A stretch of DNA of 64,000 nucleotides from Chthoniobacterales bacterium (GTDB lineage Bacteria; Verrucomicrobiota; Verrucomicrobiia; Chthoniobacterales; UBA10450). Below, in pieces: positions 3,162 to 64,000 of this stretch (its first letter is position 1; every line of letters starts with the position of its first letter). Position numbers and translations under genes: made by a program. The notes under the pieces are model-generated. The model ran no database searches. It saw nothing but the letters and a program-made list of their open reading frames with translations, and had not been told where the DNA came from. Where the stretch lies: the NCBI GenBank assembly GCA_035274845.1, contig DATENU010000011.1, positions 124,001 to 188,000 on the forward strand, read 5' to 3'.

Positions 3162-6100
3162 ATGATAAGATACGTACTACGACCATTAGGATCCCTTCGC
3201 TCGGCTCTCGCAGTCGGTGTTGGGCTTCCTTTTTTGATCGCCAGCGCCTACGCGCAGGCGCCCGCCCCGGCACCCGCGAGCGAAGCCACAACCGAGCGCG
3301 TGATTGTGACCGGTTCCTACATCCCAACCGCGGAAACTGAATCGGCTTTGCCGGTGACGGTTTACACGGCGGAAGTCCTCAAGAAGCAGGGCGCCAACAC
3401 CCCAGTCGAAGGTTTGCGTCAGTTGCCCTCATTCGTGGGTAACACGCTGACTGAAAACGATTCGAACGGCGGTAACGGCCAGGCGGCCGTCAATTTGCGC
3501 GCTGTCGGACCGGAAAACACGCTGACCCTCATCAACGGTCGTCGCGCGTTTGAATTTTCCGACGTTAACGCTATCGCGATCGGTTCCTTGAGCCGCACCG
3601 AAGTCCTGAAGGACGGCGCCGGCGCTATTTACGGTTCCGACGCAGTCGCGGGTGTCGTGAACTTCATCCTCGTCAACGGGCCCGGTGAAAAGCCGTATGA
3701 GGGTGCTGAACTCTTCGCCTTGTATGGCAATACGACCGACACGGACGCTCACGTTCGCCAGGTTTACCTCAAGGGTGGTGTGACAGGTTTGGATGGTAAA
3801 GTCGCTATCGCGGCCGCCGGTGAATATTATTCCCGCGCCAACCTCTACTCGCGCGATCGTCCCGATGTGGCTCGCAGCGGTGATACAAGCAACAACCCGG
3901 ACGGCATGCAGTGGGGCGGTCTCAATAACAACAGCCCGACGTATGCTGGTCGCGTGAGTATCGCGACGGCAGTGAATGGGATTGCCGGCCAGCTTACTCT
4001 GATCAGTCAAAGCGAGAACCAAGTCACCCCGGGCAGCTATCGGCGGTTCGACGTTCCTGCTGGCACTGATCCGTTCCGGTTCAATTTCCGCGCCTTCACT
4101 CCGGCCATTCCGGCTGTGGAAAAGGCGATGTATTACGTGACTGGCCGCTACAAAATCTTCGGTGACGGCCTCCAGCTCTATGGGGACATCATGTATTCCC
4201 ACACCAAGCAGGATAACGGTCTCGCCGGCTCTCCCTTCGCTATCACGAGCACCCTCAACGGCCTCACCGAGGCCCGCGCTTCGGTGTTCAACCCGTTTGG
4301 CAACAACCTCGGGTCCGTCCGATATCGTCTCCAGCAGGAAGTCAAGAACCCTTCTGGCCGCCGGTCGTTCTTCGATCACGATTATCAGCGCTATGTGGCT
4401 GGGATTAACGGCGACTTTAATATCAAAGATAACGGCTTCATCAGCCGCTTTGGCTATGACAGCGGCTTCGTTTACGAACACTTCCAGGAAGATCGGATCG
4501 ACAGCGGCGACGCTCGCCGCTCGTCTCTGAGAGCGCTGATTGCTAATGGCACCTTCAATCCGTTTATCGGCCAATTCGCGCCGATTACCGGCACGGCCCC
4601 GACTTACGTTAACGGCGTGCCGACCGGCCTGACCGCTGCCTACGACAATAGCATAGCGGGTGTAGATTATTTGCAGGGCGGGGCCACCTACATTGGTCAC
4701 TCGCTCTTCCTCGAGCGTGACTTCCTCTATGATGCCAAGATCAATGCCCATCTATTCCCGAACCTGTGGAATGGTGGTATTGACTTCGCGCTCGGTTACG
4801 AACATCGGGAAATTCAGCAGCACTCGATCCCCGATCCAGTGCAGGCTTCGAATGATCAGCTCGGCTTCAATCAAGCGCCGAATACCAAGACCAAGCAGGA
4901 AGTCGACTCCGTCTTCTTCGAGTTTGGGATTCCGATCGTGACCTCGACCATGAACGTTCCGTGGATTCGTTCGCTCGATCTCTCGATCGCCTGGCGTTAC
5001 GAGAAGTTCGATGACGAAGATCAATTCACCCATGTTACGGGTAGCTTCGACAACGCTAATCCCGATGAGGACTTCGGTGGAGCGCCTCGTGTGTCGCTGC
5101 GCTATCAGCCGACTGCGGACCTGACGTTGCGCGCTTCCTGGGGCCAGTCATTCCGGTCGCCCAGCCCGGCGAACCTGTTCGATCCGAATACTCAGGACTT
5201 CCCGCAGCTCCTCGATCCGTTCAATCCTGGTGGTCCAGTTACCTTGCAGCCACCGAGCGGCGTCTTGAGAAGCGGAAATCCTGGAACGCAGGCAGAAAAG
5301 ACCGATTCTTATGGAGCCGGCATTGTCTGGACACCGAAGTTCCTGCCTGGTTTCACGATGACCGTGGACTGGTATCAGCTCTTCACCACGGATCTCATCC
5401 TGGGTGGGAATGACTTCGCCCAGGTGTTGCTGGCTGGCAACGTCCTGTCGCCGGTCCAGACCTTCCCCGACGGGTCTCCGTTCTGCACTGACCAAATTGA
5501 TCCGGCCACCAACCTTGGTGCGGTCCGCGACGCCGGCGGGGCGTTGCAGTGCGTGTATTCCCAGGTCGGCAACGCCGGTAAGCGGCACGTGCAGGGCATC
5601 GATGTCACGGCGGTCTATGAAATTCCGACCGAGCGCTGGGGCAAGTTCACCTTTTCCGGTGGCTGGAACCACTTCTTCACTTGGAAGGCGCAACCGGGCA
5701 CAGGAGCGTTCAATAGCTTCCTTGGAAACTATAACAACGGCACATTGCCGCTGGCTCCTGGTGCGATTCCTTGGAACAAGGCCTTCCTCCGCGGCGAATG
5801 GGAATGGAGACATTTCGACTTCGTTTCCACGGTTAACTACATCGGCGATTTCCGGGATGACCCGGGCTTCTTCGGACCCGACTACATCCGCCTCTACGGC
5901 GCCGACACGCCGCGGAATGTGGACAGCTACATTACCCTCGACATGCAGCTGAGCTACGAGTTCGTGAAGCCGCCAGTCGAGCCGGCTCCTTACGTGAAGG
6001 AGTCGAAGGACAGCAAGAACGTGATGCAGACCGAAGCCGCTACGGCCTCGATCTGGCAGCGGATGCTCTGGGGCACCAAGCTGACGGTGGGCGTGAACAA

Positions 6101-46474: not shown

Positions 46475-46996
46475 TTAGACGATCGATAGTAATTCGGTCG
46501 GAAGTCCGGAGAGAAATTGGCTCGCGTCGTCGATTTGCAAGACCGGTTTCGCCAAATGAGCCGCGAGAAAACTCGCGTCGGGCGTCGGCGCGATCCCGGC
46601 TTGCGCGACGATTTCAGCATCCGCCAGCTGCTCGATGACTCGCGTAACGTTCCGGAGGAGATTTTTATTGTCCGTGAATTGGACCGTAGCAATTCCTCCC
46701 GCGGTTGCTTCGACATACGGCGCGAGCGTCCCCGCCAAATGGAGCAAAATGTCCTGGACTACCTTTTCCTGGGAAGGCAGCCGGATTCTGACCTGAAGCT
46801 GAAGACAGCGAGCCAAACCCTGGCTCGGCGTCATGCCGCGATGCACGCCGGTTTCTTCGGCCGCGGCGTTGAGTTGAATAATCGCGGCTTTTTTTTCCTG
46901 GTCGTCAATTAACGCGACAGGCTGGTCGCGCAACTCAGCCTGGTGACGCAACGCGGCTTGCAGGTGAAAATCGGGAACATAAATCGTGGCAAACAT
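46475..46996 (-). CDS. ImuB-like Y-family polymerase, N-terminal part only
   Basis: 173 residues. IYVPDFHLQAALRHQAEL, PVALIDDQEKKAAIIQLN and GVHRGMTPSQGLARCL match the palm/finger part of ImuB, the catalytically inactive Y-family homologue of the SOS mutasome. The first acidic residue of the active polymerases is replaced, as usual in ImuB. Normal ImuB is 450-550 residues; this frame stops after SGLPTELLSIV, just where the helix-hairpin-helix would begin. The region downstream holds only the convergent TPR gene. It starts inside the imuA stop codon (TGATG), so the two are coupled. Confidence 0.75.
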   Translation of the reverse strand: MFATIYVPDFHLQAALRHQAELRDQPVALIDDQEKKAAIIQLNAAAEETGVHRGMTPSQGLARCLQLQVRIRLPSQEKVVQDILLHLAGTLAPYVEATAGGIATVQFTDNKNLLRNVTRVIEQLADAEIVAQAGIAPTPDASFLAAHLAKPVLQIDDASQFLSGLPTELLSIV

Positions 46997-47640
46997 CAGC
47001 CCGTCCTCGCCATGACCTGCTTTCCGCCCTGCGCCCGTTTCACCCGAATTTGGAGACGCGCCGTCAGGCAGTCTTGTTCCAGATCGGCGAGCTGCCAGGC
47101 GTTATGGAGAGAAAGCTTTAATTGCGCGCTGTTGATAAGACTCGTGCGAGTAAGAACGAGGAAGGCAGCCGGCGCGGCTTCCACCAGGCGTTGCAGCCGA
47201 TACCAGCTCGTTTGCGGGATCTTGCGCAGCTCCTCGGAAGCATTCAGGACCAGATCGAGCACCACGAGCGGGAAATTGCCGTCGCGCAGAAGTAAATCGG
47301 CGGCTTGGACGGCTTCGAAGGCGGTTCGGCACCGGACCCAAAGCAGATGGCCCAAACGGGCATTATCAAGAGATTGGGGATCGAATGAATCTTTCCCATC
47401 CACCAGCGCGAGAAAACAACCGGTGCGGTGGGCATTTTGTAAAAGCGCGTAAAGCAATAGCGCGCTCCCCCCGCTTGGATTGGGACTGCTCAGCTCCGTA
47501 ATGGCATTTTTCGGTAATCCGCCGCCGATGGAATCATCGATCGCTGGCACTCCAGTCGGAAGACAATCAACGGTGGGAGCGAATGTCTGGGGAAAGCGTT
47601 CTGCCAGGAGCTTTCGAAGATCGATAATGCTCGTGGCCAT
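46996..47640 (-). CDS. ImuA-like RecA-family protein of the SOS mutagenesis cassette
   Basis: 214 residues from ATG 47638-47640. The N-terminal TSIIDLRKLLAERFP, then LPTGVPAIDDSIGGGLPKNAITELS and the RecA-fold core (LFLALVDGKDSF-like segment, VVLDLVLNASEELRK) correspond to ImuA/SulA-like proteins that regulate ImuB. The Walker A loop is degenerate (SSPNPSGGSALLLY), so ATPase activity is doubtful. It is followed by the ImuB fragment with a one-base overlap and preceded by its own LexA-type palindrome at 47668, so it is probably SOS-induced and separate from lexA. Confidence 0.75.
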   Translation of the reverse strand: MATSIIDLRKLLAERFPQTFAPTVDCLPTGVPAIDDSIGGGLPKNAITELSSPNPSGGSALLLYALLQNAHRTGCFLALVDGKDSFDPQSLDNARLGHLLWVRCRTAFEAVQAADLLLRDGNFPLVVLDLVLNASEELRKIPQTSWYRLQRLVEAAPAAFLVLTRTSLINSAQLKLSLHNAWQLADLEQDCLTARLQIRVKRAQGGKQVMARTG

Positions 47641-47667
47641 GCCCGAGAATGGCATAGCCGCGAGATA

Positions 47668-47681
47668 TGTTCAACTGAACA
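47668..47681. promoter_or_regulatory. LexA box upstream of imuA
   Basis: TGTTCAACTGAACA, a perfect TGTTC-N4-GAACA palindrome, 28 bases before the imuA start codon and 16 bases beyond the lexA stop codon. The same core precedes lexA itself. Confidence 0.75.
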
Positions 47682-47696
47682 GTCAGAGCTGAGGTC

Positions 47697-48323
47697 TTAT
47701 CCGCGTTTTCGCCGCGCCGCCGGCATCTGCTTCCGGATCAACGACACCATTACTCCCTGGATTCGCAGTTCCCGGGCCGGGACCAGGTTCGGATAGAGCG
47801 GGTTCTCCGCTTTCAGATAAGGCCGTCCGTGTTCCATCACGTATCGCTTCAGCGTCGTCTCGCCATCGATCAACGCGGCCACGATATCGCCGTTCTGGGC
47901 ATCTTTCCGGTCCTCGAGAATCACCATGTCGCCATCGAGGATGTGGGCGTCGATCATCGAGTCGCCGCGGACGCGGAGCGCGAACGTCTTCCCGTTCTTC
48001 GAAACGTTCGCCGAATGGCTGTCGAGGGAGACATGGCCTTCGACCGTCTGCTCGGTCAGCGTCGCCATCCCGGCCGGGATTTGCCCGTAGATCGGGATGT
48101 CCGTGATCCGCACTTTCTGCACCGGAGTGATAAGCGCCCGCGCCTTGCGCGCGTGACGGTTCAGAAAGCCCTTCCGCTCGAGCGTGTCGAGGTATTGCAT
48201 GACCGAGGTTTGGCTCGCGAAACCGAAATGCTGTTGGATCTCGCGCGTGCTCGGCGTGATCCCTTTTTCTCGCTGTTCCGACTGGATAAAATCGAGAACA
48301 CCTTGCTGTCTCTGGGTCAGCAT
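47697..48323 (-). CDS. lexA: LexA SOS repressor
   Basis: 208 residues. N-terminal winged helix (1-65, with the recognition part STREIQQHFGFASQTSVMQY), linker, then the S24 self-cleaving domain. The cleavage site is Ala84-Gly85 in QIPAGMATL, Ser122 in RGDSMIDAH and Lys159 in TTLKRYV form the dyad. RecA-ssDNA stimulates cleavage, releasing repression of SOS genes. The palindrome at 48357 is 34 bases upstream of the start codon, consistent with autorepression. Length matches classical LexA. Confidence 0.95.
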   Translation of the reverse strand: MLTQRQQGVLDFIQSEQREKGITPSTREIQQHFGFASQTSVMQYLDTLERKGFLNRHARKARALITPVQKVRITDIPIYGQIPAGMATLTEQTVEGHVSLDSHSANVSKNGKTFALRVRGDSMIDAHILDGDMVILEDRKDAQNGDIVAALIDGETTLKRYVMEHGRPYLKAENPLYPNLVPARELRIQGVMVSLIRKQMPAARRKRG

Positions 48324-48356
48324 GTCTCCATCATCCGCGAAAAGGTTGGCCTCGCA

Positions 48357-48370
48357 AGTTCAAATGAACA
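48357..48370. promoter_or_regulatory. LexA box upstream of lexA
   Basis: AGTTCAAATGAACA, one base off the TGTTC-N4-GAACA palindrome found before imuA. It lies directly next to the REP-like element at 48376, 34 bases from the lexA start. Confidence 0.65.
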
Positions 48371-48375
48371 TTTCG

Positions 48376-56215: not shown

Positions 56216-58216
56216 GTGTCGCAATTCCTAAACGTGATCGCATTACGAGATTCCCTCGAGGGTGACTTCATCGAAGAGGTGCGCTCCCTGTTTTCGCCCA
56301 ACGGCTTGTTGTCGCGGGCCCGGAACTTCGAGTACCGGCCCGAACAGCAGGAGATGGCGGTGGCGGTAGCCCGCGCTCTGGAGGAGGAACGCCATCTGGT
56401 GGTCGAGGCTGGGACCGGGGTAGGCAAGTCGATCGCGTATCTCGCCCCTTCGATCCTTTATGCGATTCAGCAGAAAAAGAAGGCGGTTATTTCCACCCAC
56501 ACGATCAACCTTCAGGAACAGCTTCTGCACAAGGACATCCCGATCCTGAAGAAGGTCCTGCCAATCGAATTCGAGGCGGCGCTCATGAAGGGCCGGCAGA
56601 ATTATCTTTGTCCCCGCCGGTTGGAGCGAGCGCTGCAACAGGCCGGCGAGCTGTTTACCACCTCGGAGAGCGCCGAGCTGGCCCGGATCGCAGATTGGGC
56701 GCGAACGACGAAGGATGGAACGTTAAGCGATCTGGCCATCGAACCGGATCCGAAGGTCTGGATCCAGGTTTGCAGCGAGGCCCATGTCTGCACCGCCAAG
56801 ACCTGCGGGCAGAATACGAATTGTTTCTTTCAGCAGGCTCGTAAGCGGTTGCTGGCCGCCGACCTCATCGTCATCAATCACACTTTGCTTTTCATGCTCC
56901 TTGGGAGTCCGGAAGAACAACTTCAGCGCGAGAGCGGGTACCTCTTCCCGAATGATTTCATCATTTTCGATGAGGCCCATACGGTGGAACAAACCGCGTC
57001 ACGGCATATCGGCATTGGTGTATCGCAATATGGTTTACGGGCCACGGTTCAGCGCCTTTACAACGCCCGGACCAAGAAGGGACTTTTCACCGTTACGCGA
57101 GACGCCGCCGGCGTGACCCTGGCAGCCACGCTCGTCGACGAGATCGACGCTTTTTTCCGCGCGATCGACGAACGCTGCGATTTCCGGAAAGGCCGCGAGT
57201 TTCGCATTCGCACCGCCGATTTCGCCCCGGACACAATCTCCGGGCGCTTGATCGCCCTCCAGGCCCGGGTTGCTGAAGTGGTGAAGCGGACTGAGGACGA
57301 ATTTCTGAAGGCGGAGTTGCAGGAATTGGGGCGCCGAATTCACGATGCGCGGGTCGGGATCGTCACTTTCCTGGAGCAGGGCGCCGAAGGGTATGTCTAT
57401 TGGGTGGAACGCACCGGAAAGGCCGCCCAGTTCCTCACCCTCAACGCGGCGCCCATCGATCTCGCGCCCGTGTTACAGCGAATGATTTTCCGGGACGATT
57501 GCTCCTGCGTGATGACCAGCGCCACTCTCGCGGTCGGCCGGCCGGACCTGGCGTATTTCCGCGAGCGGATCGGCGCAGCGGAGGTGGAGCCGTTGCAGCT
57601 CGGGAGCCCTTTCGATTTTCCCGAGCAGATGAAGCTGTTCGTCGTCCGCAAAATGCCGGATCCACGCGATGCCGATTACGGGAAGGCCCTGGCCCAGTGG
57701 GTCGGGCATTTCGTCCTGGAAACGGCAGGACGTGCTTTTGTCCTTTTCACGAGCTACCGGGTCATGCTGCAGCTGGCAGGAGAGATGGAGGAGTTCTTTG
57801 CGGAGAACGATCTGAACCTGCTCGTGCAAGGGCAGGGGGCGCCGCGTGGCAAGCTCCTGGAAGAATTCAAAACGAAGCCCCGCAGCGTCCTTTTTGGGAC
57901 CGACAGTTTTTGGATGGGCGTCGATGTGCCCGGGGACGCGCTCTCCAACGTCATCATCACGCGGCTGCCGTTTGCGGTTCCAGACCATCCGTTGATCGAA
58001 GCCAAATTGGAGTTCGTGGAAGCGCGCGGCGGAGATGCTTTCACGGAATATTCGCTGCCGGAAGCGATCCTGAAGTTGCGGCAGGGGGTTGGTCGCCTCA
58101 TCCGGACGAGAAGCGATCAGGGGATTGTGGTGATCCTCGACAATCGAATCGTGACCCGTCCTTATGGGCGTGCGTTCTTAAGCGCTCTGCCGGAATGTCC
58201 GGTGAAAGTGATCTGA
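56216..58216 (+). CDS. dinG: DinG-family ATP-dependent DNA helicase (XPD-like)
   Basis: 666 residues starting at GTG 56216 (upstream sequence is not conserved). Walker A VVEAGTGVGKSIAYLAPS, motif Ia AVISTHTINLQEQLL, the Fe-S cysteines in NYLCPRR and VCSEAHVCTAKTCGQNTN, Walker B FIIFDEAHTVEQ, then the second RecA domain with VLFGTDSFWMGVDVPG and LRQGVGRLIRTRSDQG. The fold unwinds DNA and R-loops 5' to 3' in repair and replication. The 3' end is duplicated as a decayed fragment at about 61017-61095. No LexA palindrome was noticed upstream. Confidence 0.9.
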   Translation: MSQFLNVIALRDSLEGDFIEEVRSLFSPNGLLSRARNFEYRPEQQEMAVAVARALEEERHLVVEAGTGVGKSIAYLAPSILYAIQQKKKAVISTHTINLQEQLLHKDIPILKKVLPIEFEAALMKGRQNYLCPRRLERALQQAGELFTTSESAELARIADWARTTKDGTLSDLAIEPDPKVWIQVCSEAHVCTAKTCGQNTNCFFQQARKRLLAADLIVINHTLLFMLLGSPEEQLQRESGYLFPNDFIIFDEAHTVEQTASRHIGIGVSQYGLRATVQRLYNARTKKGLFTVTRDAAGVTLAATLVDEIDAFFRAIDERCDFRKGREFRIRTADFAPDTISGRLIALQARVAEVVKRTEDEFLKAELQELGRRIHDARVGIVTFLEQGAEGYVYWVERTGKAAQFLTLNAAPIDLAPVLQRMIFRDDCSCVMTSATLAVGRPDLAYFRERIGAAEVEPLQLGSPFDFPEQMKLFVVRKMPDPRDADYGKALAQWVGHFVLETAGRAFVLFTSYRVMLQLAGEMEEFFAENDLNLLVQGQGAPRGKLLEEFKTKPRSVLFGTDSFWMGVDVPGDALSNVIITRLPFAVPDHPLIEAKLEFVEARGGDAFTEYSLPEAILKLRQGVGRLIRTRSDQGIVVILDNRIVTRPYGRAFLSALPECPVKVI

Positions 58217-58229
58217 ACCCCGATAGTTA

Positions 58230-58339
58230 GGGCGCGTTTGATCGTGGTAGGAATTCTCCTACAGCGTTCGAACTTTATTTTTATTGCCTACATATAAAAA
58301 AGTGATCACGATGCAGGTCACAACCCCCCAAACGCGCCC
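58230..58339. repeat. inverted repeat around an AT-rich leader
   Basis: GGGCGCGTTTG (58230-58240) is the exact inverse of CAAACGCGCCC (58329-58339). The 88 bases between include AT-rich sequence and TATAAA (58293), likely the promoter area of the next gene. Whether it is an RNA structure or a transposon remnant is not clear. Confidence 0.4.
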
Positions 58340-58375
58340 CCCAAAACACAAACCCTCAAAATAGAAAGAACCCCA

Positions 58376-58780
58376 ATGAACAAGGCATCCCTCAGTTCAC
58401 GCGGCTTAATCGGCTTCGTCCCCAGCTCAATTGGCATCCTCCTGGCTCTCCTCGTGATGGTCGCATTCCCAAGTTCCTCCGTCCTCGCAGATCAGTGTGC
58501 TGAGGTGGAGTTTCACGAGACTGGGAATTGTTGTATTCATAACATCTATGTGAGTCTGAGCACGGCCACCAGCGGAGCAACTATCTTCGTTACGTCGAGC
58601 ACAACGTACATGCCGGCAGATCCCACGCACAACGGCAGCACTCCCACCGGCACCACTAGTACCTGGGTAGGGCCAAATTTTGTGGTGCCCCCCGGTGGAC
58701 GGTTGGACATCAAAGCAATCGCCTATAAAGCGGGTTCCACCGATTCGGCTGTGACCGAGTATTTGGTCGAGAACTACTAA
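58376..58780 (+). CDS. small secreted protein with a CHB_HEX_C_1/Fn3-associated-like domain
   Basis: 134 residues: a signal peptide (IGILLALLVMVAFPSSSVLA) and a mature part with cysteines (DQCAEVEF, GNCCIHN) followed by the pattern ATIFVTSSTTYM...GSTPTGTTSTW...RLDIKAIAYKAGSTDSAV, which matches the small carbohydrate-associated domain found as repeats in exported chitobiases and surface proteins. Only one copy is present. It probably sits on the cell surface or binds glycans. Follows dinG by 159 bases. Confidence 0.65.
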   Translation: MNKASLSSRGLIGFVPSSIGILLALLVMVAFPSSSVLADQCAEVEFHETGNCCIHNIYVSLSTATSGATIFVTSSTTYMPADPTHNGSTPTGTTSTWVGPNFVVPPGGRLDIKAIAYKAGSTDSAVTEYLVENY

Positions 58781-58854
58781 ACCCGTTTTGCCTCTTTCGG
58801 AATAAGGGCCTGCGGGAACGTAAACGACGGTCGAGGAAGACAAGCAAGCGGCGA

Positions 58855-58882
58855 CGCCCATCGTTTGTTCGAACGGTGGGCG
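58855..58882 (+). terminator. GC-rich stem-loop after the small secreted gene
   Basis: CGCCCATCGTT (58855-58865) pairs with AACGGTGGGCG (58872-58882), one mismatch, loop TGTTCG. It has no following T-run, so termination is uncertain. 58781-59001 contains no gene that I can support. Confidence 0.4.
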
Positions 58883-59001
58883 CCGGGAGCCATTAGTGCT
58901 TGGATCGCGACGCCAAATTGCTTTTGAGAATAAGCTGCGGTCCTGGCAGCGGCGCGGAAAGCCGGTGTTTTCTGGAGGCCTGATCTCTTTAGGTTGATCC
59001 C

Positions 59002-60948
59002 ATGCAGCGCTTCGCTCTCCCGATTATCCTCGCGATCACCTCGCTGCTGATTGGTGTAGTCATTGGCCGCTATACTTCTTCGCCCAGCCAAGATATTTCG
59101 CCCCGCAACAACCCACGCAGCTCCCTGGATTCCTCGGCCATTAACCCGATAAATCCTCCCGCTGTTTCTCCGCGCAAGAGAGTTGTTGAAGAATCAGATG
59201 CAGCTTCTGCCGAAACCGCGGATTCGGCGGAAAATATTATCGCCAAAATCAAGGCCGCGCTCGGGCGTTCAAGCAGCCGTCATACTTACGCTACCTTCAG
59301 CAAGCTGGCGGAAAAAGTGGACCTCTCCAATTTGGGGCAAGTCCTCGCCTTTGTGCAGACCCTCCCGAACCCGCAGGAGAAAAGCATGCTCATTTCGCTC
59401 TTTGTCGCGCGTTGGGCGGAGCTCGATTCCCGGGCTGCCATCGCTTACGCGGAGGCGCTTCCCGCGGGCACCGCGCGAAATTGGGCCCTGACCAGTGTGG
59501 TGAGCGGCTGGGCCGAACATGATTCGGCCGCGGCGATAGCGTGGGTCCAGCAATTGCCGCCCGGACCGATGCGTGACCAGGCGTTGCAAACCGTCGTTGC
59601 CAGTCTGGGAGAAAAAGATCCGCAGGCCGCGCTTACGTTTTTGGAAAACCTGCCCCCGGGCCGGAATCGACAAAATCTTTACTGGCCTGTCTTTAGTAAA
59701 TGGACAGCCAGCGATCCAGTCGCCGCGGCGGAACGCGCGTCGCAATTGCCGCCTGGATCGAACCGGGAGACGGCGTGGCAGGTAGTCGGTTCGACCTGGG
59801 CGAATCAGGATCCCGAGGCAGCCTTAGCCTGGGCGAATACTTTGCCTGCGGGGCAGGGGCGGACCAACGTCCAGCAAAGTGTTTTGGCGAACTGGGCCGT
59901 GAAAGAGCCGGAAAAAGCGGCGCAAGTCATTCTGGCCCTGGCACCCGGGCCACTGCGCGATCAATCGATTAACAATGTCGCGCGGCAATGGGCGCAGACA
60001 GATGCGCGCGCGGCGTTGAATTGGGCCCAGGCCTTGCCGGCAGGCGATAGCCAGAGCAACGCGTTGCGATCGGTCCTCGTGAGCTGGGTCCAATCCGATC
60101 CGACCGCAGCCGCGCAATACATCTCGGCGTTGCCGCCGGGCAAGGCGCAGGAAGAAGCAACCATGGCGGTCGCGTTCCAGCTCGCCAAAAGCGATGTCCA
60201 GAGCGCCATGACCTGGGCCCAGAAACTTCCTTCTGGTCCGCAACGGCAATCCGCCCTGGTCAATATCATTGCCCAATGGAGCGAAGGGGATCCCCGGGCC
60301 GCGGCAAATTTTGCCCTGCAAGCGAGCGATCTGGATGCCCGAAAAACGCTGCTCGAAAATGTTTCCCGGGTCTGGAGCCGCAGCGATCCCCAGGCAGCTC
60401 TCGCCTGGGCTGGAAATCTGCCGGACGCCGCCGTGCGCGATCTGGTTTTTCCCGCCCTTATCGCCGCGGTCGCAGAATCCGATCCGCACCAAGCCGCGAC
60501 ATTATTGTCGCGTCTCTCCACATCCGAAGCGCAAACCGACGCGACCGCAGGCCTTGTCGGGCAATGGGCCAGCAGCGATCCGCAGGCAGCCAGTCAATGG
60601 GCCGTCTCCCTGCCGGAAGGTAAAATCAGGCAGCAAGCTGTTGAGAGCCTGATCAATCGCTGGTCGGAAAGCGCTCCCGCGGCGGCGGGCGCATGGCTGG
60701 GGACGTTGCCAGGCGGCGCTTCCCGCGATACGGCAGTGGCGGCTTATTCCCGCCGGATTTTTTCCACCGATCCCCAAACTGCCTTGGGCTGGGTCGAAAC
60801 GATCGGAAACCAAAACCTGCGCGAGTCGCAGTTGGAATCGATCGTGGTGGGCTGGCTCCGCAGTGACCCGGGGAGCGCCGCGGCCTGGCTGAGCCACTCG
60901 TCGTTATCGCCGGAAATGCGAGCGCGACTATTGTCGCAGGGGCGATGA
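59002..60948 (+). CDS. membrane-anchored helical-repeat protein, copy A
   Basis: 648 residues. One transmembrane anchor (ALPIILAITSLLIGVVIGRY, residues 5-24), a polar linker to about 90, then about fifteen helical repeats of 35-38 residues to the end. The repeat consensus is W-x-x-x-DP-x-AA-x-x-W-A-x-x-LP-x-G-x-x-R-x-x-A (for example SDPTAAAQYISALPPGKAQE, KDPQAALTFLENLPPGRNRQ). Such alpha-solenoids bind partners; I recognise no named family. It is about 60-65% identical by eye to the copy at 61851. Its stop overlaps a short remnant frame by ATGA. Confidence 0.75.
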   Translation: MQRFALPIILAITSLLIGVVIGRYTSSPSQDISPRNNPRSSLDSSAINPINPPAVSPRKRVVEESDAASAETADSAENIIAKIKAALGRSSSRHTYATFSKLAEKVDLSNLGQVLAFVQTLPNPQEKSMLISLFVARWAELDSRAAIAYAEALPAGTARNWALTSVVSGWAEHDSAAAIAWVQQLPPGPMRDQALQTVVASLGEKDPQAALTFLENLPPGRNRQNLYWPVFSKWTASDPVAAAERASQLPPGSNRETAWQVVGSTWANQDPEAALAWANTLPAGQGRTNVQQSVLANWAVKEPEKAAQVILALAPGPLRDQSINNVARQWAQTDARAALNWAQALPAGDSQSNALRSVLVSWVQSDPTAAAQYISALPPGKAQEEATMAVAFQLAKSDVQSAMTWAQKLPSGPQRQSALVNIIAQWSEGDPRAAANFALQASDLDARKTLLENVSRVWSRSDPQAALAWAGNLPDAAVRDLVFPALIAAVAESDPHQAATLLSRLSTSEAQTDATAGLVGQWASSDPQAASQWAVSLPEGKIRQQAVESLINRWSESAPAAAGAWLGTLPGGASRDTAVAAYSRRIFSTDPQTALGWVETIGNQNLRESQLESIVVGWLRSDPGSAAAWLSHSSLSPEMRARLLSQGR

Positions 60949-61028
60949 GCGAGGTCATGAGCGCGACTGCGAGATCGAAGGCGAAAGAACGCCAGACCGA
61001 AATCGCGCGCTGGATCTTCGAATCGTGA
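60945..61028 (+). pseudogene. truncated copy of the ImuB C-terminal-like gene
   Basis: ATG at 60945 overlaps the repeat-protein stop; the 27-residue product contains RSKAKERQTEIARWIFES, which aligns with the start of the frame at 63815 (KSRAAKERQAEVTRIL). Similarity ends after RWI/RIL, where a decayed dinG tail begins. It is best read as the broken end of a tandem duplication. Confidence 0.55.
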
Positions 61029-61095
61029 TCTGGTCCCAGCGAGGGGGCTTTTTGCAGGCGCTACCGGAATGCCCCGGTGAAAGTGCTTTGGTTAG
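61017..61095 (+). pseudogene. decayed duplicate of the dinG 3' end
   Basis: In one frame bases near 61043-61077 encode GFLQALPECP, compared with AFLSALPECPVKV at the end of DinG (58170-58213), and AATCGTGA precedes both. A one-base insertion then shifts the frame before GGTGAAAGTG. It marks the left end of the second duplicated unit. Confidence 0.5.
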
Positions 61096-61217
61096 CGGTT
61101 CCGGCGGAAGGAGTTACCGGCTAAAATTCAAGCTTGACTACAAATATCATAATTTACACGATGCGCTCCCACTCTCTCATAAGGGGAGAAACGGCAATCC
61201 ACGACAGAATCCAAATC

Positions 61218-61697
61218 ATGCACAAAAAAACTAAATCCATCCTTCTGGCTCTGGTGGTCGGAGCCATCGCAGCGCCGCTCCTTTACGCGGCCAGTGTTCA
61301 CTTCAAGGGCGGTTCGCCGACCTTCTCGGATCAGGGAACGACCCTTAAAACGTGTTTCAGTCTGGCGGGCCTCGGCAACGGGGACGTCACCATCACCGTA
61401 AAGACGACCGGTTCGGCAACGACCCTCTGCACCAACCAGGGAGGCAACACAGCTCCCGGTCAAAACAAGACGCCCGTCGCGCCCAGCGCCCAGCAGACCT
61501 TCCCTTCTACGCAGATTAAGAATGGAAATCTCAGCGCGTGCCTGACTACGGCGCCGCCACCGGCGCCCAGCGCGTCCGAAGCAGGCTGTCCGAACTCCAA
61601 CTGGTCAACGAGCTTGACGGATGTTTCGTTCGACACGGCGCAGATCACCGTCGTGCAAGGCGGTCAGGTAGTGCTTCAGCAGACGTTCCGGCCCTAA
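61218..61697 (+). CDS. small secreted protein, Ser/Thr/Pro-rich
   Basis: 159 residues from ATG 61218, directly before a signal peptide (KSILLALVVGAIAAPLLYAAS). The mature part contains several cysteines (LKTCFSL, TTLCTNQ, LSACLTT, EAGCPNS) in a beta-rich, glycine/threonine-rich chain ending VVLQQTFRP. No family recognised. It occupies the place of the Fn3-like gene of the first repeat unit but is not similar to it. A terminator follows. Confidence 0.7.
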   Translation: MHKKTKSILLALVVGAIAAPLLYAASVHFKGGSPTFSDQGTTLKTCFSLAGLGNGDVTITVKTTGSATTLCTNQGGNTAPGQNKTPVAPSAQQTFPSTQIKNGNLSACLTTAPPPAPSASEAGCPNSNWSTSLTDVSFDTAQITVVQGGQVVLQQTFRP

Positions 61698-61722
61698 TCG
61701 AGGGGAAACGTTGTTCTTTTGA

Positions 61723-61766
61723 CGATGCGCCGCTGCGTCACTGCGGCGGCGCATCGCTCATTTTCG
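61723..61766 (+). terminator. rho-independent terminator
   Basis: CGATGCGCCGC (61723-61733), 12-base loop, GCGGCGCATCG (61746-61756), then CTCATTTTC. Eleven perfect pairs. Confidence 0.75.
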
Positions 61767-61785
61767 GGTCGGACAAAATTTGTGC

Positions 61786-61813
61786 TTGGCGGCAAGCGAA
61801 GCTTCTTTATACT
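61786..61813 (+). promoter_or_regulatory. promoter of repeat-protein copy B
   Basis: TTGGCG (61786-61791), 16-base spacer, TATACT (61808-61813). GGAG with a suitable spacing precedes the ATG at 61851. Confidence 0.55.
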
Positions 61814-61818
61814 CATCT

Positions 61819-61833
61819 GAACATATCTTGTTC
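61819..61833. promoter_or_regulatory. operator-like palindrome at the predicted transcription start
   Basis: GAACATATCTTGTTC, perfect five-base arms with a five-base centre, overlapping the expected start of transcription. It faces the opposite way from the LexA box (TGTTC-N4-GAACA), so it is not a LexA site. Confidence 0.35.
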
Positions 61834-61850
61834 CGTGGAGAAATAACTCA

Positions 61851-63803
61851 ATGCTTCCGTTAAAGACGAAAATCGCTCTCGGGATAGCCCTGCTGTTGCT
61901 GGTCCTTGCTTTTGTCTTTCGGTTTTCGGAGCATCCTTCCGGGCCGGTGCGGGAAATTGCCGTCGAAACGAAATCCGCCCCGGCGTCTCTTCCAAGCCCG
62001 CCTCCTGCGGTAACTATCGCCCGGGACGATTCGGACATTTCGCAAAGCTCGCGAGACGACTCCGCCGTTTCCGATGTTTCCAGCAACGCTCTCATTGCCA
62101 AAATCAAAACGGCCCTGGCCCATTCTGGGAGCCGGCATACTTATGCCACTTTCAGCAAGCTCGCTGAAATGGTGGATGCAAAAAACGTCCGGGAAGTGCT
62201 GGCCTACGTCGAAACTTTGCCGAAACCGCAGGAAAAGAGCATGCTCATTTCGCTTTTGCTTGGGCGATGGGCTGAATTAGAGCCGCAGGCGGCGATGGCT
62301 TATGCCCAAACTCTTCCTCCGGGAAGCGCGCGAAACTGGGCCATTACCAGCGCAGTCAGTGGTTGGGCGGAACACGATCCAACGGGAGCCACAGCCTGGG
62401 TCCAGCAGCTCCCGGCGGGTCCCGCGAAAGAGCAGGCAATGCAAACGATTGTTTCGGCCTTGGCCGATCGAGATCCGCAGTCCGCGCTCATTTTTTTGCA
62501 AAGCCTGCCGGCCAGTCGCAATCGCCAAAATCTTTATTGGCCTCTTTTCAGCCGATGGGCGACGACCGATCCAGCGGTAGCCGCGGAGCGCACCCAGCAA
62601 CTCCCGGCGGGAAGCAATCGCGATACAGCAATTCAAGTGGTTGGTTCGACTTGGGCGAACCAGGATCCGGAAGCAGCCTTCGCCTGGGCCAACACCTTGC
62701 CGGCGGGACAGGGCCGCAATAACGCGCTCCAAACCATTTTAGCGGGTTGGGCTAACAAAGATCCACAAAAAGCCGCTGAAGTTCTTGCCACCTTGCCGCC
62801 GGGGCAGGCGCGTGATCAATCCATTAACAATGTGGCCCGACAGTGGGCTCTGACGGATGCACGCGCAGCCCTGGCCTGGACCCAGGAATTGCCTCCCGGT
62901 AATGCGCAACAAAATGCTTTGCGGGCGGTCCTGGCGGGTTGGGTGCAATCGGAGCCCACGGCCGCGGCCGAATACGTTGTCCAATTACCGCCCGGGAAAG
63001 CCCAGGACGAAGCGACCATGGCGATCGCGTTGCAATTGGCGAGCAGCGATGTCGAAAGCGCCGTTCGCTGGGTGCAAAAACTTCCCGAAGGAACAGCGCG
63101 CCAAAATGCCCTGGCCAGTATTACTTCCCAATGGAGCGAAGTTGATCCGCGAGGCGCCGCCGATTTCGTGCTCCAAACGAGTGAGGCGGACGGACGCAAA
63201 GGGTTGCTTGAAAATATTTCCCGCCAATGGGCCCGGAATGATTCCCAAGGTGCGCTCACCTGGCTCGGCAACTTAACCGACCCCGCTCTGCGCGATACGG
63301 TCTTGCCGGGCGTCATCGCCGTTATCGCGGAATCAGATCCGCGCGAAGCGGCGAAATTATTGTCGCGCTTATCGACAAACGATGCTCAGGCGAACGCCAC
63401 CGCGGCCATCGCCTGGCAATGGGCCGAAAGCGATCCGCAATCGGTCAGCAGCTGGGTCGCTACTTTCCCTGAAGGCAAAACCCGCCTCCAGGCTTTTGAA
63501 AGCTTGATGAATCGTTGGGCGGAAAGCGATCCTTACAACGCTGCTGTCTGGCTCGGCACCTTGCCCCAGAGTGAATCGCGGGACGTCGCCGTATCCTCTT
63601 TCACGCGGAGAATTGTTTCGTCCAATCCCGAGGCTGCCGCCCAATGGGCTGAATCGATTGGCGATCAAAGCATGCGCGATCGGCAAGTCGAATCGATCGC
63701 TACCACTTGGCTGCGAATCGACGCCAGTAGCGCCACAGCCTGGGTTACTCATTCATCGCTTCCCCCTGAAACGAAAGCCCGGCTGTTGGCCCAGAATAGA
63801 TAA
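61851..63803 (+). CDS. membrane-anchored helical-repeat protein, copy B
   Basis: 650 residues with the same plan as copy A: membrane anchor (KIALGIALLLLVLAFVFRF, about 5-24), acidic linker, then about fifteen 35-38-residue repeats such as QDPEAAFAWANTLPAGQGRN and WAESDPYNAAVWLGTLPQ. The repeat-rich part aligns end to end with copy A (both begin RHTYATFSKLAE and end near EMRARLL / ETKARLL). The C-terminal frame is intact. Twelve bases downstream starts an ImuB C-terminal-like frame, possibly co-transcribed. Confidence 0.78.
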   Translation: MLPLKTKIALGIALLLLVLAFVFRFSEHPSGPVREIAVETKSAPASLPSPPPAVTIARDDSDISQSSRDDSAVSDVSSNALIAKIKTALAHSGSRHTYATFSKLAEMVDAKNVREVLAYVETLPKPQEKSMLISLLLGRWAELEPQAAMAYAQTLPPGSARNWAITSAVSGWAEHDPTGATAWVQQLPAGPAKEQAMQTIVSALADRDPQSALIFLQSLPASRNRQNLYWPLFSRWATTDPAVAAERTQQLPAGSNRDTAIQVVGSTWANQDPEAAFAWANTLPAGQGRNNALQTILAGWANKDPQKAAEVLATLPPGQARDQSINNVARQWALTDARAALAWTQELPPGNAQQNALRAVLAGWVQSEPTAAAEYVVQLPPGKAQDEATMAIALQLASSDVESAVRWVQKLPEGTARQNALASITSQWSEVDPRGAADFVLQTSEADGRKGLLENISRQWARNDSQGALTWLGNLTDPALRDTVLPGVIAVIAESDPREAAKLLSRLSTNDAQANATAAIAWQWAESDPQSVSSWVATFPEGKTRLQAFESLMNRWAESDPYNAAVWLGTLPQSESRDVAVSSFTRRIVSSNPEAAAQWAESIGDQSMRDRQVESIATTWLRIDASSATAWVTHSSLPPETKARLLAQNR

Positions 63804-63814
63804 GGTCCCCAGAG

Positions 63815-64000
63815 ATGGGTGAGATTTCTAAATCCAGGGCGGCCAAAGAGCGGCAGGCCGAAGTGACCCGTATCCTGGATCTCTTGCATCGATGGGGAAT
63901 TGATACGCTGGGTCAATTTGCAGCTTTGGAAAAAGAGGCGGTCGGAGCACGCCTCGGTGCGATCGGGCTCGAGCTTTGGGAGCGCGCCCGCGGGAAGACG
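63815..64000 (+). CDS. ImuB C-terminal-like protein (partial, runs off the right edge)
   Basis: ATG at 63815 with AGAG upstream; 62 codons are open to the window end. After a basic start (KSRAAKERQAEVTRIL) the chain reads LLHRWGIDTLGQFAALEKEA and VGARLGAIGLELWERARG. This is the helix-hairpin-helix segment that follows the palm in Y-family polymerases/ImuB (the usual pattern is LGI-TLG-LAALP...RFG...A.G). The ImuB N-terminal half at 46475 ends just before this segment. A stand-alone HhH protein is the alternative; the remaining sequence is needed. Confidence 0.55.
   Translation, partial: MGEISKSRAAKERQAEVTRILDLLHRWGIDTLGQFAALEKEAVGARLGAIGLELWERARGKT

Follow-up and report, generated by a model that had tools for sequence, protein, structure and literature searches.

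A tandem array with an older, possibly imported, second allele at a predicted LexA-box locus of a Chthoniobacterales genome

Tandem arrays with a visible junction are routinely counted as gene duplications, and an ordinary tandem duplication that leaves a junction of fused gene fragments should yield units that are sister copies. In a soil Chthoniobacterales genome (4.54 Mb in 24 contigs; here G000), the order dinG end, small secreted gene, repeat-protein gene and start of the gene for the C-terminal half of ImuB (imuB-C) occurs twice in succession, as a sequence-only reading had proposed, and the question is whether the two units are copies of each other or alleles of different descent. We studied a window of 64,000 nucleotides (contig 11, bases 124001–188000) together with related genomes, among them the sister species G020 and G025. 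The features are collected in Table 1, with two earlier coordinates mended, namely the start of the second secreted gene (61218) and the end of the dinG match (near 61085). The helicase gene on the left flank matched the YoaA and DinG models with scores below their cut-offs, and it is single copy in relatives.

Table 1 Features of the two-unit array and its flanks (window coordinates unless a locus is named).
Feature	Position	Strand	Remarks
dinG/YoaA-like helicase gene	56216–58216	+	Intact, left flank; Helicase_C_2 3.7e-45; 3' end is the source type for the decayed copy
sec1, small secreted protein, unit 1	58376–58780	+	Fn3_assoc/CHB_HEX_C-like
rep1, membrane-anchored alpha-solenoid repeat protein, native allele	59002–60948	+	Without upstream LexA box; in tree with G020 and G025 (100/100)
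imuB-C 5' end stub	60945–61028	+	Homologous start codon 60957; continues into dinG remnant
Decayed, frameshifted copy of dinG 3' end	61018–61095	+	Similarity ends near 61085
sec2, small secreted protein, unit 2	61218–61697	+	Same slot in G025, G027 and G007
LexA-type box ATACTCATCTGAACATATC	61809–61827	+	Precedes rep2; score 21.8
rep2, diverged repeat-protein allele	61851–63803	+	Operon position ahead of imuB-C and dnaE2
imuB-C, C-terminal half of ImuB, intact	63815–64000	+	Extends beyond window end (L034:9816-10793)
dnaE2	L034:10809-14000	+	Downstream of imuB-C, outside window

The joint between the two units can still be read. Pairwise alignment of the dinG end (58144–58210) with 61018–61085 gave 50 identities in 69 columns and a score of 37, above all 1000 dinucleotide shuffles (top shuffle 35); the remnant contains indels, has lost its stop codon and is frameshifted. 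The stub ahead of it (60945–61028) aligns moderately with the intact imuB-C start of the same genome (63815 onwards; score 26, equalled by 9 of 1000 shuffles) and is identical to the imuB-C start of G025 at 48 of 55 bases (87%), which sets the homologous start codon. The claims that the short frames at 60945 and 63815 are related, and that a truncated ImuB-C frame runs into a decayed dinG 3' end (60957–61022 into 61018–61085), were thus borne out. The joint links approximately codon 28 of imuB-C to the last ~25 codons of dinG, and the two types of sequence overlap, in alignments read by eye, on ATCGT near 61022–61026, within 61018–61028. Since imuB-C and dinG share no homology, the joint is illegitimate. 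Its geometry is that of a tandem duplication, with the 3' end of one unit joined to the 5' start of the next and intact genes on both outer sides. The remnant of dinG offers too few bases for placement in a tree, with 5 sites like the genome's own dinG and 8 like the others.

Two full-length copies of the repeat gene at the locus occur in just one of 83 genomes of the family, the present one. Relatives with a resolvable locus have the single-copy order dinG – [sec2] – rep – imuB-C – dnaE2, with rep often 30–220 bases past dinG, in agreement with the expected single-copy state, and the tandem array is therefore peculiar to this genome. The locus thus consists of two tandem units with an illegitimate imuB-C/dinG joint, at a site that is single-copy in relatives. 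An assembly chimera of two strains would also place two alleles on one contig, and the related genomes are metagenome assemblies, so this genome may be one as well. We consider this very unlikely, as the copy of the dinG end at the joint has a frameshift and no stop codon, unlike an intact strain allele, and lies on a contig of 348,577 bases on which the dnaE2 and dinG sides continue as in relatives.

Two further irregularities of the repeat gene were seen in relatives. G027 has a second repeat-protein gene (L104:4-1023, L106:2-823), a far paralog with 41–47% identity, which we rejected as a case of the same event since neither dinG nor imuB-C nor dnaE2 lies near it on the contigs concerned. 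In G023, the single rep gene is in two overlapping pieces (L038:2744-4676), through a frameshift or an assembly error.

The joint geometry, and the presence of the array in this genome only, would suit a recent plain tandem duplication within this species followed by very fast change of rep2 and the imuB-C start. The two units are, however, not each other's closest relatives. The repeat proteins (648 and 650 aa, genes 2855 bases apart) are 60–61% identical with equal repeat register, and in the rep tree rep1 groups with G020 and G025 (100/100) with rep2 outside. A pairing of rep1 with rep2 was rejected by AU tests on protein (p 0.00115) and on DNA (p 1.4e-12; gene thirds 0.028, 0.001 and 0.001). 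The synonymous divergence between the two genes, a count suggested beforehand, is saturated (dS about 1.75, with 67% of four-fold sites different) and exceeds that between rep1 and G020 (1.13). With dN/dS of about 0.15–0.18, both genes are kept under purifying selection, and the gap is not merely fast protein change. A recent plain duplication is extremely unlikely on these grounds. Synonymous change alone was unusable for dating, given saturation (four-fold differences around 0.5 and above).

Several unlinked or flanking genes show which of the two alleles is at home. The clade of G000, G020 and G025 that contains rep1 was also recovered by rpoB (unlinked, on another contig; 100/100), dinG (98/95) and the 3' part of imuB-C (100/99), so rep1 is native. 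At sites diagnostic for G020 and G025 versus other species, counts (sister clade first) were 69:39 for rep1 and 122:47 for dnaE2 against 36:77 for rep2, which resembles the outsider G026 (30:85; rep1 versus rep2, p 2e-6). GC3 is likewise lower in rep2 (0.61) and the imuB-C 5' part (0.63) than in rep1 (0.67) and the remainder of imuB-C (0.70). Based on these trees and site counts, the divergence of rep2 is placed before the separation of this species from G020 and G025. A donor genome for rep2 was not found, the closest relatives being only 65–74% identical, with four-fold sites differing by 0.58–0.62. The boundary inside imuB-C is less sharp: the first ~225 bases lean to G022 and the remainder to G025 (switch on diagnostic sites, p = 0.08), and a tree of the 5' part is still compatible with the native clade (75/88).

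The age of the scar can be set against this old split. Four-fold sites of this genome and G025 differ by 43–57%, and for a stub free to change since the species split an identity of 0.60–0.70 would be expected, under which 48 of 55 identical bases has a chance of 1e-5 to 2e-3. A stub that is hardly under selection and so well preserved makes the scar hard to place before the species split, and it looks younger than the separation from G020 and G025, although this is the weakest link of the argument, concerning about 55–66 bases. The stub also matches the genome's own intact imuB-C less well (36 of 51) than it matches G025, hence the intact imuB-C 5' end is not its close kin. An old split of alleles together with a young joint suggests that alleles of different descent were placed side by side. 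The two ages would agree only if unit 2, or at least rep2 with the imuB-C 5' end, is foreign, or if an older duplication, lost from the sister species, left a scar that has survived unusually well.

The latter possibility is the main rival, a vertical tandem duplication on the stem of G000, G020 and G025 with later loss of unit 2 in both sister species (hidden paralogy), such that rep1 and the single genes of G020 and G025 would be one paralog and rep2 the other. A clade of these four members is compatible with the data (AU p = 0.34), rep2 leans to the G000, G020 and G025 clade in the last third of the gene (83/92), and a tandem array is able to collapse without a scar. On this view, nothing would have kept the stub from decaying from before the split onwards, and yet it equals G025 at 48 of 55 bases, and the losses would have to restore an intact imuB-C with a 5' end of the unit 1 type in the sister species. 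We therefore regard a stem duplication as rather unlikely, though it deserves the most attention among the alternatives.

The secreted genes have a history of their own. Pairwise alignment with shuffles of sec1 and sec2 plus flanks gave no convincing alignment above chance, in line with the earlier view that they are unrelated and that one was exchanged. Because sec2 occupies the same position between dinG and rep in G025 and in G027 and G007, which belong to other genera, it is the ancestral resident of the slot; a sec1-type gene was found in this slot in none of the relatives compared, and sec1 is the newcomer. Dating via sec2 was unusable, its four-fold sites being saturated (0.56–0.64). 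Elsewhere in the genome there are three weaker sec1 paralogs (C12:23574, C24:11887 and C11:309965; 37–50% identical). The sec2 of G025 (L039, about 3186-3600) has a deletion and a frameshift in its last third and may be decaying.

The two repeat genes also differ in predicted control. A single match to the LexA DNA-binding family is present in the genome, and boxes of the type TGTTC-N4-GAACA precede lexA and the imuA-like gene. The boxes beside lexA score 21.0 and 26.8. The box ahead of rep2 is of the same type as that ahead of lexA and ranks second in the window, behind the lexA/imuA box. Upstream of rep1 (58781–59001) no LexA-type box was found (best score 0.2), and sec1 fills the slot. In relatives a LexA-type box is conserved ahead of rep, or in some ahead of imuB-C. 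We infer that rep2 holds the predicted SOS operon position (LexA box – rep – imuB-C – dnaE2) and that rep1 is now a separate gene.

The ImuB gene of this genome is split in two. The N-terminal half (46475–46996) comes after an imuA-like gene and lexA (46475–48372, minus strand), with two strong LexA-type boxes (47664–47683 and 48353–48372) beside lexA (47697–48323), and the C-terminal half (plus strand; with dnaE2, L034:9816-14000) lies ~17 kb away, after rep2 and before dnaE2. Both operons of the split ImuB carry LexA-type boxes. In six other members of the genus, the N-terminal half is about 7–9 kb from rep, on the opposite strand.

Taken as the best explanation, the second unit, or at least rep2 together with its LexA box and the 5' end of imuB-C, would have come in as a diverged allele from a related lineage within the same genus, a reading for which we judge the chances to be about even. 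The simplest single step would be homology-facilitated illegitimate recombination, in which a donor fragment carrying the dinG end, sec2, rep2 and the imuB-C start pairs with homologous sequence in the resident imuB-C, and its opposite end becomes fused to the start of that resident gene across a short common sequence (ATCGT), so that the native stub remains. In this step rep1 would be displaced from its LexA-box promoter and from the imuB-C/dnaE2 operon, with rep2 taking over the position; the rep1 box was probably lost when sec1 entered the slot, and rep1, cut off from imuB-C, would persist under purifying selection. That a single illegitimate step gave a foreign allele both the resident's predicted SOS promoter and its mutagenesis operon, leaving rep1 alive outside LexA control, is a more tentative proposal, somewhat short of an even chance. 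A point against import is that sec2 is common to unit 2 and the sister species G025, with no hint of a far donor. The converse, unit 1 as the foreign one, is not favoured, as rpoB, dnaE2 and the 3' part of imuB-C all match the behaviour of rep1.

The same final picture could be reached in two steps, by a recent native duplication followed by separate allelic replacements, affecting sec1 and the 5' end of rep1 in unit 1, and rep2 with the 5' end of imuB-C in unit 2, leaving a native joint block in the middle; this is a two-step form of the import reading. The block from the rep1 3' end through the stub and dinG remnant to sec2 is indeed G025-like on both sides of the joint, and the rep1 5' part leans away from G020 and G025 (10:14 against 59:25, p 0.015), a count to be read with the fast-evolving, poorly alignable N-terminal parts of rep in mind. 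At least two imports would be required, and we find this course improbable, clearly more so than a stem duplication.

Import in a single step has counterparts in known systems. Homology-facilitated illegitimate recombination is described for Acinetobacter, Streptococcus pneumoniae and Pseudomonas stutzeri, and for E. coli conjugation (PMC3240628). As in those cases, one end of the array could be explained by a homologous crossover (in imuB-C) and the other by an illegitimate joint at what may be a short shared sequence, with the resident and the putative incoming allele adjacent; unlike those laboratory cases with known donors, no donor was found here and the imuB-C crossover is weakly supported. 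For the stacked orphan immunity genes of the Vibrio cholerae T6SS, the authors propose recombination of this kind (PMC5361080), and there too an incoming related module takes the operon position with the displaced resident kept beside it. The V. cholerae genes, however, are effector/immunity modules under competition, whereas here the displaced gene codes for a putative SOS-operon solenoid that is not known to require diversity. The setting itself resembles the LexA-controlled imuA-imuB-dnaE2 mutagenesis cassette (so named in PMC8565304), with LexA boxes, ImuA-like protein, ImuB and DnaE2 all within about 22 kb; it differs in that ImuB is split over two genes, each in its own operon, and in that the C-terminal half is preceded by a membrane-anchored solenoid.

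An ordinary tandem duplication shares with this locus the truncated downstream gene joined to a truncated upstream gene between intact outer genes, but not the repeat genes, which here are not sisters. Of the proposed ancient tandem duplication, the real joint, the tandem geometry and the single-copy relatives stand, and one gene copied and then drifting in this genome does not (AU p 0.001 to 1e-12). "Ancient duplication" is not the best name for this tandem array, whose second allele is imported or, at the least, older.

The finding is an evolutionary detail and not a new system, yet it provides a readable case of duplication-like tandem neighbours with two different histories, in which two ages can be compared by combining the scar with the trees and the single-copy state of relatives. 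In addition, it suggests that a fast-evolving membrane-anchored solenoid regularly belongs to the LexA-box – ImuB-C – DnaE2 operon of these bacteria. The named relatives of the repeat protein come from metagenome genomes labelled Spartobacteria, Chthoniobacterales or Verrucomicrobia, and its structural model has a membrane helix (4–22), a disordered linker and a helix-pair solenoid (mean pLDDT 81); a fold search with the solenoid returned general alpha-solenoid matches with low TM-scores and no functional lead. A membrane scaffold for the ImuB-C/DnaE2 machinery would fit the operon, as a guess. If the proposed takeover in one step is true, two versions of one putative mutagenesis-operon protein, one native and one foreign, are at work in the cell under different control.
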